Virus record (IMG/VR): IMGVR_UViG_3300022200_007400 | Span: 1 to 24,543 of that record | DNA from: a virus | Strand: one strand, 5' to 3' | DNA length: 24,543 bases | Part shown: positions 4,696 through 10,853 of the stretch, one piece after another | Position numbering within the stretch: the stretch's first letter is position 1 | How the letters are laid out: every line of letters starts with the position of its first letter | Position numbers and translations under genes: made by a program | Notes under the pieces: model-generated | The model's input: only the letters and a program-made list of their open reading frames with translations | What the model was told of the DNA's origin: nothing | The model's database searches: none

Positions 4696-5314
4696 CTCCT
4701 CCGAATAATCTTAACTGTCTCGAATGCTTCTCGAAGCGTGCTACCGCTCTACCATGATAATCAGGATCGATCTCCCAAGCATCCAGAGAGAATCCTCCAT
4801 CATAGCAAGCGAGCGCGATACTTCCAGATCCTAGATGAGTATCTAGTATCTTATCCCCTTCCTTCGCGAATTTATCCAGTAGCCATCGATAGAGCTGGAT
4901 AGGCTTCTGAGTAGGATGGATCTTTCCTTTCGTTCGATTATCGAATCGGAAGATCGGAGCTGGTTTATTGTACGAAGTCCAAGCCATCTCCCATCCTGAA
5001 AAGTTCTCCCATGGTTGAACCTTATCCCAAGCGATTACGCATCGAGTAGGAGGAAGATCAAAATAGTTTCCTCCCCATATAATCTGCTCTTTACTCACTC
5101 GGAAGAGCTCCTCGAAGTATTCTGGAGGAGGAGCCATATCCCATTTAAAGATTTCTCCACGATTAAAAGCCCTATCCTTCATCTTTCCCCCTCCCTGAAC
5201 TCCTGCTTTTTTTAATCCATAAGGAGGATCTACGATAGCGAGATCGTACTGGTTATCCTGCATCTCTCTCATAGCTTCCAGAGAGCATCCGAGATTTAGA
5301 TTAATATTACCCAT
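4685..5314 (-). CDS. DNA methyltransferase, beta-type N6-adenine/N4-cytosine
   Basis: 209 residues. The catalytic motif DPPYG is at ~29-33, HPTQKP is at ~133-138, and the AdoMet-binding motif (ILDTHLGSGS) is at ~156-164. Catalytic before cofactor motif is the beta order (PF01555). DPPY favours adenine N6 methylation without excluding N4-cytosine. No restriction endonuclease neighbour is seen, so it is an orphan, most likely protecting phage DNA or marking it for replication control. It starts eight bases inside the RusA gene with GGAGGG just upstream, and its stop overlaps the primase gene. The target sequence cannot be told from the protein. Confidence 0.88.
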   Translation of the reverse strand: MGNINLNLGCSLEAMREMQDNQYDLAIVDPPYGLKKAGVQGGGKMKDRAFNRGEIFKWDMAPPPEYFEELFRVSKEQIIWGGNYFDLPPTRCVIAWDKVQPWENFSGWEMAWTSYNKPAPIFRFDNRTKGKIHPTQKPIQLYRWLLDKFAKEGDKILDTHLGSGSIALACYDGGFSLDAWEIDPDYHGRAVARFEKHSRQLRLFGGDDG

Positions 5315-5756
5315 CTTCCCTCCATTCGTGGATCGTGAATAGCGTATGAGGATCCTCCGATTTCGATGCGTAGTAATCCTCGCATGAGATGCAAACTACT
5401 CGATTATCATCCATCCAGATCTCGCTCTGAGTAATGATATCGAGTACCATCTTCAATAGATTATCGATATCGGGTTTCGTGGTTTTATAGATTCTCCCTT
5501 CTGGAGTATCCCCAGACTTTAGGAGAAGCCTCTTCGGTCTGGGAGATACGAACGTGATATTCACGCGGAGAGGCCCTTCGAGCGGCTTCCAGTCCTCTCC
5601 CTTCGCTGCTATGAGATTAATGATCTGAGTATTCTTATACTCCCTCGAGCTCTTTCCAGTATATGCTCTTCCGCTTCTGGTGAATCGCGGCCTCCCCATA
5701 GGAACGGGAGTTCCTTGGAGAATCCCCTGATATACTTGTAACCATCCCATAATCAT
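5307..5756 (-). CDS. rusA: RusA-family Holliday junction resolvase
   Basis: 149 residues, close to typical RusA length (~120-150). PVPMGRPRFTRSGRAYT (~17-33) is the N-terminal signature. KPDIDNLLKMVLDII (~94-108) holds the conserved acidic residues, with a third acidic cluster at WMDDNRVV (~114-121). RusA dimers cut four-way junctions in recombination and late replication, resolving branched phage DNA before packaging. The start overlaps the upstream stop (ATGA); a second ATG two codons on is also possible. The neighbours, methyltransferase and primase, form a usual phage replication and recombination cluster. Confidence 0.92.
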   Translation of the reverse strand: MIMGWLQVYQGILQGTPVPMGRPRFTRSGRAYTGKSSREYKNTQIINLIAAKGEDWKPLEGPLRVNITFVSPRPKRLLLKSGDTPEGRIYKTTKPDIDNLLKMVLDIITQSEIWMDDNRVVCISCEDYYASKSEDPHTLFTIHEWREDG

Positions 5757-6238: not shown

Positions 6239-6372
6239 TGAACACCTCCCATAATAGCTACTGCGATTGCGTTAATCGCATGAAACATGGGGAACCAGAG
6301 CAACGCGGCCCCCATAACTACGAATCCGAACCCGATGTTCTTTCCGATTTGTTTAGCTGTTTTTCTTGTCAT
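6235..6372 (-). CDS. 45-aa small membrane protein
   Basis: The reading frame starts with MTRKTAKQIGKNIGFG and continues into a hydrophobic stretch (FVVMGAALLWFPMFHAINAIAVAIMGG), then stops. It has a basic N-terminus and one or two closely spaced membrane helices. ATG at 6372 carries the GAGGTACAAA cassette and the stop overlaps the next start by ATGA, so it is very likely translated. A membrane role such as superinfection exclusion or a holin-like protein is possible, but nothing shows which. Confidence 0.7.
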   Translation of the reverse strand: MTRKTAKQIGKNIGFGFVVMGAALLWFPMFHAINAIAVAIMGGVQ

Positions 6373-6529
6373 TTTGTACCTCTGATTCTTCTAGTTGTTT
6401 GATCATCTGTAAGTTAATCTCGATTATCATCCCGATTCTTCGAACCTCTGCAAAGTCCTTCGAGAGATAGGCTTCTACTGCTTTCTCCTCGAGCTGCGCT
6501 ATATTCTCTCTTAATAGTTTTATCTTCAT
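6353..6529 (-). CDS. 58-aa helical protein
   Basis: The frame starts MKIKLLRENIAQLEEKAVEA and ends with EESEVQNDKKNS. It is charged and leucine/isoleucine-rich with heptad-like spacing, so probably a small coiled coil. Its ATG overlaps the stop of the 166-aa gene upstream (ATGA at 6526-6529). Its own 3' end runs 20 bases into the next gene, so the binding site of that gene (GAGGTA) lies inside this frame. No family is recognised. Confidence 0.65.
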   Translation of the reverse strand: MKIKLLRENIAQLEEKAVEAYLSKDFAEVRRIGMIIEINLQMIKQLEESEVQNDKKNS

Positions 6530-7026
6530 TGCGATTCTCCATCTTCTTCTATTTCAATCCAAGAAATTCCGTTGTCTTCATCTGTAAAGATGGAGCAACC
6601 AACCCCAGATTCATTTAACTGTCTAATAGAGTGGTAACCGTTCCACTCTATTAGAGTGGAACATAGATCGCATGCAGGCCGATCCATGAATCGGCCCCAA
6701 CTATCTACAAATATTTTTTTGGAGATTTTTGGGGTGATTACTGGCTCATTGAGCCAGAATTCCAATTGTTTCCGAATTTGGAAATCGGAAACATTTTCCA
6801 AACCATTGACCCACGGCAACGTTATCAAAGTATAATTACGATAAATCGTTAGGGAATCTACTACCAGATACTCTTTCCCTTCGGGATATCGGTAATTGAT
6901 CATTACCGATATCCCACTTCCTCTTTTATATTCTCGTACAAGTTCATTATCTTGTACGAGTTCAAATCGCAATTCTTGAAGCAGGATGCTTAGATAGCAT
7001 CCATGCAAAGGTTGTTTCTCTAACAT
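6526..7026 (-). CDS. hypothetical 166-aa protein encoded by hairpin-dense DNA
   Basis: I do not recognise the family. It reads as a mixed alpha/beta soluble protein with a possible CDLC pair (~134-137). The start is well supported: AAGGAGGT sits three bases before the ATG, which overlaps the upstream stop by seven bases. The striking feature is in the DNA. Most of its length is a chain of perfect inverted repeats, so that paired protein segments are encoded by the two strands of one stem; for example LVQDNELVRE comes from a 10-bp stem and GISVMINYRYP from a 14-bp stem. Base composition is more AT-rich than the genes around it. Confidence 0.7.
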   Translation of the reverse strand: MLEKQPLHGCYLSILLQELRFELVQDNELVREYKRGSGISVMINYRYPEGKEYLVVDSLTIYRNYTLITLPWVNGLENVSDFQIRKQLEFWLNEPVITPKISKKIFVDSWGRFMDRPACDLCSTLIEWNGYHSIRQLNESGVGCSIFTDEDNGISWIEIEEDGESQ

Positions 7027-7274
7027 TCTACCTCCTTAATTTCAACAGAGAACTGTCGTAACTCTGTTTGATCTTCTGAGGGATACTCGAAATATTCGAG
7101 TACTGGAAGATTTAGAGACATGTTTTCATTCTCATTATTTTTTTCATGTATAGTTGCATTTATCCATGTATCTGTATCGAAATCTTGTTTCGATACATCG
7201 ATGGAATACCAAGTTCCATCGATTAAAATCGAATTCAATTCGCTTCTAATATAATCTGAAGATAAGTTATCTTC
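6571..7274. repeat. chain of consecutive short inverted repeats across two genes
   Basis: Perfect paired arms, on plus coordinates: 6623-6634/6643-6654 (12 bp), 6677-6683/6690-6696 (7), 6741-6747/6751-6757 (7), 6767-6775/6785-6793 (9), 6883-6896/6902-6915 (14), 6933-6942/6951-6960 (10), 6984-6990/6996-7002 (7), 7044-7050/7062-7068 (7), 7084-7091/7095-7102 (8), 7173-7182/7188-7197 (10), 7197-7206/7214-7223 (10) and 7258-7264/7268-7274 (7). Imperfect hairpins fill gaps: 6571-6599, 6695-6734, 6818-6850 and 6851-6880. Loops are mostly 3-11 bases. The stems have different sequences, so this is not one repeat copied many times. Confidence 0.9.
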
Positions 7275-7304
7275 GTTTGTGATTTTTATTTTTATCTGTT
7301 TCAT
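7020..7304 (-). CDS. hypothetical 94-aa protein encoded by hairpin-dense DNA
   Basis: An acidic, beta-looking protein (MKQIKIKITNEDN start, EIKEVEC end) with no recognised family. The ATG has the GAGGTACAAA cassette. Its 3' end overlaps the 166-aa gene by seven bases and supplies that gene's AAGGAGGT site. Like that gene it is built of inverted repeats; IDGTWYSID, for example, is one 10-bp stem with an in-frame near mirror of codons. The shared DNA property and the overlap suggest the two genes form one functional or evolutionary unit. Confidence 0.7.
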   Translation of the reverse strand: MKQIKIKITNEDNLSSDYIRSELNSILIDGTWYSIDVSKQDFDTDTWINATIHEKNNENENMSLNLPVLEYFEYPSEDQTELRQFSVEIKEVEC

Positions 7305-7323
7305 TTTGTACCTCGATAGATGA

Positions 7324-7345
7324 GGAGGAACCCGAAGGCTCCTCC
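7324..7345 (-). other. intergenic GC-rich hairpin
   Basis: GGAGG (7324-7328) pairs with CCTCC (7341-7345), with an inner CC/GG pair around a CGAA loop. It lies between the stop of the 76-aa gene (7353) and the start cassette of the next (7304). There is no T-run after it on the minus strand, so it is more likely an mRNA-stabilising or attenuating hairpin than a terminator. Confidence 0.5.
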
Positions 7346-7352
7346 AATAAGA

Positions 7353-7583
7353 TTATTTGTTTGAATGATATTGAAGGATATAATCTAGAGATACTCCCTC
7401 TGGGCATGTTTTCTCTAGTGTTATTAGAAAGTTCTTGAAGATCTCGAAGGCTGCTTCCATATCACCTGAAGCCATAGCAGCGAAGAACTTCGCGCGCGAA
7501 GGATGGTTCGGATTCTTCTTGAAGAATACCATTAGAGTATCGATTCCGTTATTAGCTAGGATTTGTAGATCTTGATTTGTCAT
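7353..7583 (-). CDS. hypothetical 76-aa protein, first gene of the early operon
   Basis: Starts MTNQDLQILANNGIDT. A longer frame reaching 7676 runs through the AT-rich promoter region, but ATG at 7583 has the GAGGTACAAA cassette, so 76 residues is the likely product. The sequence is helical with no membrane segment (DTLMVFFKKNPNHPSRAKFF, then MEAAFEIFKNFLITLEKTCP). Its DNA contains a perfect 14-bp palindrome (7488-7501) and a 7-bp-arm hairpin (7511-7526), an extension of the hairpin-rich zone downstream. It has no recognised family. Being promoter-proximal it is probably the earliest-expressed protein. Confidence 0.65.
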   Translation of the reverse strand: MTNQDLQILANNGIDTLMVFFKKNPNHPSRAKFFAAMASGDMEAAFEIFKNFLITLEKTCPEGVSLDYILQYHSNK

Positions 7584-7624
7584 TTTGTACCTCGTTGTTT
7601 TTATATCCTCATTGGATATATATA

Positions 7625-7653
7625 TATATACCATAGTTTTGTATACTATGCAA
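7625..7653 (-). promoter_or_regulatory. early minus-strand promoter with palindrome in the spacer
   Basis: On the minus strand TTGCAT (7653-7648) and TATATA (7630-7625) are separated by exactly 17 bases. The leader continues to the GAGGTACAAA start at 7583. The spacer and -35 edge hold the inverted repeat CATAG/CTATG (7632-7636 and 7646-7650), a plausible repressor site. The surrounding 7597-7670 is strongly AT-rich. This is the only intergenic region before the early gene run. Confidence 0.55.
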
Positions 7654-9158: not shown

Positions 9159-10853
9159 CTAATCTCGAAGATTCACCAGAGGATTATCCTCGAGCTGAAG
9201 AATGAATCTCCATCGGTTATTACTCCAGGATTTACTCATAATCTGACATTTATGAGAATCATATCCGATTCTCTCTGAGGTTAGAGAAACAATATCTCCG
9301 AGATCTAAATATCCATATTTTGGAGCTGCTGAGATCTCTATCGCGTAAGCTGGTAGAGCATGATATCGAATCTTATCTCTCGCGATGCGAACCGCAGTAT
9401 CCAGATCCCATACGAACGGAGCCTCGATAATCAGTTCACGAAGGCCATATCTCGAGAAGGAGATCTCCGCGAGCGCATCCGTATAAGTTAATCCGATCTC
9501 TTCTGATGCATCAGGATCGATTATTACCTTCGAGCGATAGTTCCCCTGAGAACCTTCATAACCGAATCGAACCGTTATCTTATTGTATATCTCCTGCTCG
9601 AGCGGAGTTAATGGAGAGATGATTTCTAGCTCTCCAGAGTCATAGAGATAATGAGTAGGTTCGATGGTTTGAGAGTACATATAGAGATCGAGATTCGGTT
9701 TGATTCCCTTCGGGCCATTCGTGATCTCGATGGGGAGTAACTCCCAGATATTATTCTGAATCCAATCGAGAGCAGATACCTCCAGATCGTTTACATATCC
9801 AGAGAACTTATATCGATTGAGAACTCCCTCGAGGCCTCTCCACGCTCCGATATCATAATCTAACCCCGAGAGCTCAAGAACGAATAGAGATAGATCTACT
9901 GCGGATTTGAGGGAACCATTCGAGAACGGATTCGGATGCGCTCCATTAGATTCTCCCCAAGATGCATAATAACCGAAGGAGAGCTCTGGGGAGGATAGTT
10001 GGAACCCATTATCCTCGAGATTCGTTCCCTCTGGGGATCCTACTCCTGTAATGTAGTAAGGAACATACGAGAGAGTTTTTCCTCGAGAATCGACCATCTG
10101 ATAGGCTGGATTCAACATATTTCCCCCATTTCCATCATATACTCGAACCCTCCCTCCGATAACTTCATGATAGGCTACGAGAAAGTATTGAGTAAGGAGA
10201 GTGGGAGTTCCTCCAGCTTGATAGGCTGGAGAGGTTGGGATTTGATTCTCCGTAGTGAGATCTCCATCTCGAGTTTCCAGAGTAGCGATTCCCAGATCCC
10301 CGAATACGAATGGAACGACCTTTCCCTTCGATTGCTCGATTATCCCGATAGCGAACTCCTCTTCTCGTATAATATGATGAGTTCCTACGAGCTTGATATC
10401 TCGAATATTCGTACTGTTCTCGATGGAGAAGGAGATAGATCCCATCTGAGCTGCTGGATCTCCGAAGATGGCATCCAATACGCGGCCCTTAAATATCCCG
10501 ATACGATCTTGGATGGTGAAACTCGTTTTCCCTTCGAATACGATAACCATCGAGAGCTCGCAGGGAGAATCGTTAAGAGTCCTCCCTCGCTTCCATTCTC
10601 GAATCCAATCTACCTCTTCGAATACAAGTTCGAGAGAGATCGTATTCGCTTCCAAATCTACTCCTACTCTCTGAGATTGGAGATTGACATCGGGATCGGA
10701 GAGGCCTCCTCGATATGGGATAATCTGATTCTCCGCGATATCTTCGATCTGAATCGGGATAGTAGAGAATCGATATGGAGTTCCATAATATTCGATCTCC
10801 AATAGGAAGCAGATATCTCCCTGGATTATATCGCTGCGCTTAATAGAATCCAT
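9159..10853 (-). CDS. tail tip / hub-like structural protein
   Basis: 564 residues, beta-rich. The N-terminal ~130 residues (RSDIIQGDICFLLEIEYYGTPYRFST onward) resemble the first hub domain of tail-tip proteins. Residues ~430-560 (EQEIYNKITVRFGYEG ... YLDLGDIVSLTSERIGYDSHKCQIMSKSWSNNRWRFILQLEDNP) match the pattern of hub proteins, in which a line on how lines are measured, 'GDiV.lt...g', precedes the C-terminal beta domain. It follows the receptor-binding-type gene with a TAATG overlap and precedes lysis, as tail-tip genes do. The call rests on position and fold pattern, not on a named family. A 268-codon antisense frame inside it is a codon-bias shadow. Confidence 0.6.
   Translation of the reverse strand: MDSIKRSDIIQGDICFLLEIEYYGTPYRFSTIPIQIEDIAENQIIPYRGGLSDPDVNLQSQRVGVDLEANTISLELVFEEVDWIREWKRGRTLNDSPCELSMVIVFEGKTSFTIQDRIGIFKGRVLDAIFGDPAAQMGSISFSIENSTNIRDIKLVGTHHIIREEEFAIGIIEQSKGKVVPFVFGDLGIATLETRDGDLTTENQIPTSPAYQAGGTPTLLTQYFLVAYHEVIGGRVRVYDGNGGNMLNPAYQMVDSRGKTLSYVPYYITGVGSPEGTNLEDNGFQLSSPELSFGYYASWGESNGAHPNPFSNGSLKSAVDLSLFVLELSGLDYDIGAWRGLEGVLNRYKFSGYVNDLEVSALDWIQNNIWELLPIEITNGPKGIKPNLDLYMYSQTIEPTHYLYDSGELEIISPLTPLEQEIYNKITVRFGYEGSQGNYRSKVIIDPDASEEIGLTYTDALAEISFSRYGLRELIIEAPFVWDLDTAVRIARDKIRYHALPAYAIEISAAPKYGYLDLGDIVSLTSERIGYDSHKCQIMSKSWSNNRWRFILQLEDNPLVNLRD

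Follow-up and report, generated by a model that had tools for sequence, protein, structure and literature searches.

The nearest described parallel to the locus presented here lies outside phages, in the mitochondrial genes of Nematomorpha, which harbor coding palindromes in the form of perfect inverted repeats and for which template switching has been discussed as the cause (PMC6649704). Template switching is also known to generate perfect hairpins and to keep them perfect (PMC8794818), and it can rewrite arms and codons in coding sequences (PMC8604942). The literature that we searched yielded no phage precedent, leaving uncontradicted the statement of a first-pass annotation of this DNA that it knew of no described phage gene family with such a property.

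Two overlapping genes packed with perfect hairpins

The window, i.e., the whole stretch of DNA analyzed here, comprises 24,543 bases of a tailed-phage record (a virus record according to the database listing). Its genes, most of which lie on the minus strand, include those for a VapE-type helicase, a DNA methyltransferase, RusA, and an HTH regulator. Among them are two overlapping minus-strand genes, delineated as open reading frames and subjected to a permutation test: B (7020-7304; 94 aa; GC 0.31) and, following it, A (6526-7026; 166 aa; GC 0.39). A ribosome-binding site, AAGGAGG, lies immediately 5' of gene A, and the stop codon of gene A overlaps the start codon of the next gene, C (6353-6529; minus strand; 58 aa). 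With a perfect hairpin defined by arms of at least 7 bp and a loop of 3-12, the pair contains 14 of them (arms 7-14, loops 3-11), nine in A and five in B, all within 6622-7274; six have arms of 10-14 bp. The first-pass annotation had already recognized a two-gene region of such density, and that stands, with its counts of at least 12 hairpins and five with arms of 10 bp or more raised to 14 and six, and its span of 6571-7274 replaced by the gene pair, 6526-7304, as the relevant unit.

The hairpins follow one another closely. At 6622-6662 lies an overlapping triplet of the form X-X'-X, in which a hairpin at 6622-6655 (arms 13, loop 8) excludes, and is excluded by, one at 6640-6662 (arms 10, loop 3). 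Perfect hairpins at 6677-6696 (arms 7, loop 6) and 6741-6757 (arms 7, loop 3) precede two interleaved and again mutually exclusive ones at 6767-6802, namely, 6767-6793 (arms 9) and 6777-6802 (arms 8); these two pairs are the only ones that clearly overlap. Then come the longest hairpin, GGGATATCGGTAAT (6883-6915; arms 14, loop 5), and those at 6933-6960 (arms 10, loop 8) and 6984-7002 (arms 7, loop 5). The stretch 7003-7043, which holds the start and ribosome-binding site of gene A, has no perfect stem, and larger stem-free stretches also occur inside the genes. Beyond it are hairpins at 7044-7068 (arms 7, loop 11) and 7084-7102 (arms 8, loop 3), two abutting ones within 7173-7223 (7173-7197, arms 10, loop 5; 7197-7223, arms 10, loop 7), and a last one at 7258-7274 (arms 7, loop 3). 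As had been noted earlier, imperfect hairpins occupy several of the gaps (e.g., 6695-6734, arms 17, 82% complementary), and every stem differs in sequence.

This density is confirmed to lie beyond chance. A scan of the entire window for inverted repeats recovers 44 perfect hairpins, seven with arms of at least 10 bp, of which the remaining 23.8 kb hold 30 and one, respectively; thus 3% of the window carries 32% of all its perfect hairpins and six of the seven long ones. Under synonymous-codon permutation, which preserves both the protein and codon usage, gene A would be expected to have 1.19 hairpins on average (maximum 5) and gene B 0.84 (maximum 4), and none of the 2000 permutations of either gene reaches the observed count; similar counts from such shuffles had been named beforehand as the outcome that would speak against the observation. 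A second-order Markov null gives 0.70 for the 779-bp region (maximum 6 in 4000) and 0.017 for arms of at least 10 bp, against the 14 and six found. Folding energy, likewise proposed as a check, deviates from dinucleotide shuffles with z-scores of -9.2 for the message strand and -9.8 for the other strand. Genes C and D (7353-7646), which flank the pair, have zero and one hairpin, so the excess coincides with the cassette defined below. The earlier claim that neighboring genes lack this density also holds for most of the 13 other window genes put through the same permutation test, which are near expectation. Among them, only a 564-aa gene, p564 (9159-10853), departs mildly, with an excess of short, 7-bp hairpins (five versus 1.8 expected; a count that high arose in 10 of 300 permutations).

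The same picture emerges from a broad, non-random survey of 2225 viral ORFs of at least 80 codons from 163 non-redundant viral loci (1.64 Mb), including segments of T4, Listeria P100, Flavobacterium 11b, Polaribacter P12002S, and P-SSM2. Ranked by the fraction of the ORF covered by hairpin arms, A comes first (0.319) and B second (0.291), the next ORF having 0.164 and the mean being 0.015; of the 50 hairpins in coding DNA whose arms reach 10 bp or more, six belong to the pair. The loci surveyed include those fetched with an 8-bp hairpin as bait, minus near-duplicates: it matched at least 119 contig stretches, local counts were inspected for 79, and among the matches listed only a second contig of the same phage (L004) was hairpin-packed. 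Another hairpin cluster (L143-L145) was considered as a similar gene and rejected, because it lies between genes and consists of a single motif repeated in an array. Two AT-rich (29-30% GC) large phage contigs, L279 and L196 (IMGVR 3300001487_000106 and 3300031760_006385), show numerous perfect hairpins of 12-20 bp, some within ORFs, and ORFs of L279 rank next in hairpin richness after the pair.

The signature is DNA-level, strand-symmetric, and nearly all-or-none. Enrichment in the 779-bp region is restricted to inverted repeats with loops of up to 20 and is absent at longer loops, and local direct repeats (1 versus 1.03 expected) and mirror repeats (0 versus 0.15) are at chance level under the Markov null. 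Stems of 8 bp without mismatch are 20-fold in excess (23 versus 1.15), against 1.5-fold with one mismatch (15 versus 9.8) and 1.2-fold with two (38 versus 31.6). Selection at the RNA level should make use of G-U pairs and favor the message strand. Here, G-U pairs are fewer than expected on both strands, and, relative to synonymous permutations, the antisense strand is as over-stable as the message (z -8.1 and -7.7 for gene A; -4.0 and -4.3 for gene B); the marks of a functional structured RNA, namely, tolerance of G-U and a more stable message strand, are thus not seen. No Rfam family matched the pair at its gathering score, the best match (E 0.05) being far below it. The proteins themselves predispose to hairpins: under random back-translation, that of A is more hairpin-prone than 160 of 160 control ORFs and that of B than 156 of 160. 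Hence, amino acids have changed too, and the hairpins shaped the protein rather than synonymous sites alone. The hairpin centers show no preference of codon phase (4:5:5 across the three phases, weak evidence given few and short repeats), so that protein constraint did not visibly steer their placement. Taken together, the perfect-stem excess, short range, strand symmetry, low G-U, phases, and protein effect speak for a process acting on the DNA and not for selection on the mRNA. GC is higher in the arms than outside them (0.44 versus 0.33), which fits stable fold-back and selection alike.

An exchangeable cassette and its surroundings

Contig L004, a second IMG/VR contig, is identical over 7747 bp; its sample may not be independent of that of the window, yet the identity shows that the sequence was not assembled just once. 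Both genes are missing from the closest relatives (L005, L008, and L007/L010), which have 92-97% identity in a neighboring 174-aa protein. In two of these, L005 and L008, gene C starts directly behind a leader, GGAGG..GCCTTCGGGTTCCTCCTCATCTATCGAGGTACAAA, that shows small differences. In the present phage, the same leader, GGAGGAGCCTTCGGGTTCCTCCTCATCTATCGAGGTACAAAATG (7302-7345; minus strand), leads into the start codon (ATG) of B, and the end of A falls on that of C, so that comparison with these relatives defines exact cassette edges, the leader upstream and gene C downstream. The same leader precedes yet other genes in L007 and L053. Judged from these comparisons, the slot behind the leader is exchangeable and accessory, with A and B as one cassette of it, and the two genes probably entered jointly, as a single block; the presence/absence pattern as such does not polarize gain versus loss. 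The relatives have RusA, VapE, and the remaining replication genes in common with this phage but no hairpin signature, which implies that neither RusA nor the phage's own replication explains A and B. The signature most likely arrived with the cassette.

The leader itself combines a UUCG-type hairpin with a GAGGTACAAAATG start in front of different accessory genes (L005, L007, L008, L053), as if genes were exchanged at it as a fixed docking edge. The same start, GAGGTACAAAATG, recurs at 628, 3527, 6382, and 7593, and the leader motif used as bait matched the already-known relatives plus L290, L294, and L296. At the DNA level, the region of gene D (7290-7593) shares 89% identity with L053/L054, although their VapE protein is only about 46% identical to that of this phage, which suggests a recent transfer between distant phages of the group.

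Downstream of the VapE helicase gene are arrays of a short motif, ACAGATG/A, in inverted orientation (1503-1568 and 1750-1810), with a counterpart array of the motif TATCTGTCAT in L144 (11121-11446). These look like an iteron-type replication origin whose position is conserved across distant relatives. The earlier suggestion that the hairpins of A and B form a single-strand origin or packaging structure is therefore unlikely, given origin-like iterons elsewhere and the absence of the cassette from close relatives.

No convincing homologue of either protein was recovered from Pfam, PHROGs, NCBIfam, PADLOC, PDB, phages, viral contigs, or 395 genomes of one phylum, nor of A from plasmids and genome contigs; searches of the contig collections relied on exact short peptides and miss proteins below an estimated 75% identity or so. 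A Listeria phage P100-type protein was rejected as a homologue of A (E 0.02-0.06 in the phage search; a gappy alignment of 111 residues). In the search for a host, only distant VapE relatives matched, and we name none. AlphaFold2 (AF2) gave an unusable model for A alone (pLDDT 36.7) and, from the single sequence, a fair one for B (mean pLDDT 68.6), for which a fold match was sought and none found. From the operon fit, the ribosome-binding sites, and the fair model of B, we infer that A and B probably still work as proteins.

Proposed fold-back copying and its rivals

We give a probability of about one-half to the reading that A and B were exchanged horizontally as a pair and that snap-back template switching in a donor replicon had rewritten their DNA. 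During DNA synthesis, the nascent strand would fold on itself and copy its own arm, making the second arm an exact reverse complement of the first, and repeated events of this kind could turn the coding DNA of both genes into a chain of perfect short hairpins. Such fold-back switching corresponds to what is known as quasipalindrome correction or sequence-directed mutagenesis. Most of the rewriting would have taken place in the donor before transfer, a placement suggested by the lack of the signature in the rest of the phage and in relatives with common replication genes. As expected of template switching, the excess is limited to perfect short-range inverted repeats, and pairing is of the strand-symmetric Watson-Crick type and not RNA-like; the X-X'-X triplet adds support. 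We count against it the GC enrichment of the arms, which is also expected from selection for stable stems, and the small number of clearly overlapping pairs. The loci surveyed included no source replicon with genome-wide hairpins. Neither did the collections searched hold a diverged homologue of A or B, the only other copy being the identical L004, and for this reason an individual event cannot be traced from an ancestor.

That same lack of diverged homologues keeps a serious, if less probable, rival in play, namely, that the hairpin chain itself was selected, with synonymous and tolerated amino acid sites tuned to it. Such a chain might act as a structured mRNA, be it a regulator, a decoy, or a means of nuclease protection or slowed translation, or as a structure of single-stranded DNA in the course of replication or entry. 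The extreme folding energy and the GC-rich arms agree with selection, as does the placement of the ribosome-binding site and start of gene A in the stem-free 7003-7043, yet larger free stretches lie within the genes. The near-chance number of near-perfect stems, the mutually exclusive hairpins, and the lack of an Rfam family tell against it, and the scarcity of G-U on the message strand together with the equally over-stable antisense disfavors the mRNA version in particular; a structure selected at the DNA level escapes the G-U argument. Of the four causes offered by the first-pass annotation, snap-back switching thus fits best, on account of its perfect-stem, hairpin-range, strand-symmetric, and protein-shaping signature, ahead of the structured mRNA and the origin or packaging structure.

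The remaining one of the four, that the hairpins are substrates for the phage's RusA resolvase, draws on the presence of the RusA gene (5307-5756) in the same gene cluster; it is contradicted by 54 matches to RusA among the relatives, at loci without hairpin-packed genes except in copies of this phage, and stems of 7-14 bp with single-stranded loops are not four-way junctions, which makes it highly improbable. Just as little credence attaches to chance or to a sequencing or assembly artifact, such as fold-back amplification chimeras: the DNA is of metagenomic origin, but the null models refute chance, and the identical L004 contig and the 14 different hairpins within intact reading frames speak against an artifact. 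Somewhat less improbable, though still unlikely, is that A and B are not conserved functional proteins but frames that fold-back copying of short stretches of DNA caused to grow or drift, still open because they are young. Their orphan status in every database searched, the poor model of A, and hairpins that do not avoid the most restrictive codon phase are compatible with this; good ribosome-binding sites, the ATG-to-ATG operon fit with overlapping stop and start codons, the model of B, and the improbability of two adjoining long frames in unconstrained DNA of 31-39% GC are not.

If template switching is the cause, the process can rewrite whole small genes, including their amino acids, and the pair offers a natural substrate for measuring it; if structure was selected, the pair represents a new kind of structured message. 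More speculatively, and we regard either as rather doubtful, the donor of the pair may belong to an as yet unseen lineage of replicons, be they phages, plasmids, or viruses, whose mode of replication converts genes as a class into perfect-hairpin chains, or the hairpin-chain message may be a selected phage weapon or shield.

Comparison with known palindromic and structured coding sequences

Among phages, a coding region with strong RNA structure, as here, is known from the structured RNA sensed by CBASS, which derives from terminase genes (PMC10686824); A and B, in contrast, include no structural gene, have no Rfam match, and are strand-symmetric in their structure. The Rickettsia palindromic elements (discussed in PMC6649704) likewise place palindromic DNA inside reading frames, but they are copies of repeat families, whereas no two stems here are alike and direct repeats do not exceed chance; the stems therefore do not belong to one or a few repeated families of the RPE, REP, or MITE-like kind. 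Template-switch hairpins in RNA genes (PMC8794818) and yeast coding DNA (PMC8604942) share with the pair the hairpin-scale perfect reverse-complement arms and the amino acid changes. Those events are scattered, single, and called against an ancestor, unlike the more than a dozen lying end to end in 779 bp here, for which no ancestral sequence is at hand.

The Nematomorpha palindromes resemble the pair most closely: in both, an excess of perfect inverted repeats lies in open, translated genes, perfection is nearly all-or-none, and some hairpins compete with each other. However, the nematomorph repeats average 43 bp, reach 142, and occur throughout mitochondrial genomes in conserved respiratory genes (PMC6649704), whereas the pair, two orphan genes in a single phage cassette, has stems of 7-14 bp, its longest arm of 14 bp being below the 15 bp or more, often tens of bp, that mark the former. 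Nematomorpha further avoid the most restrictive codon phase, in which third positions are paired together, and the 4:5:5 distribution shows no such avoidance, albeit from few short repeats that make for weak evidence. Set beside these systems, A and B appear to take the coexistence of coding DNA and palindromy to an extreme.
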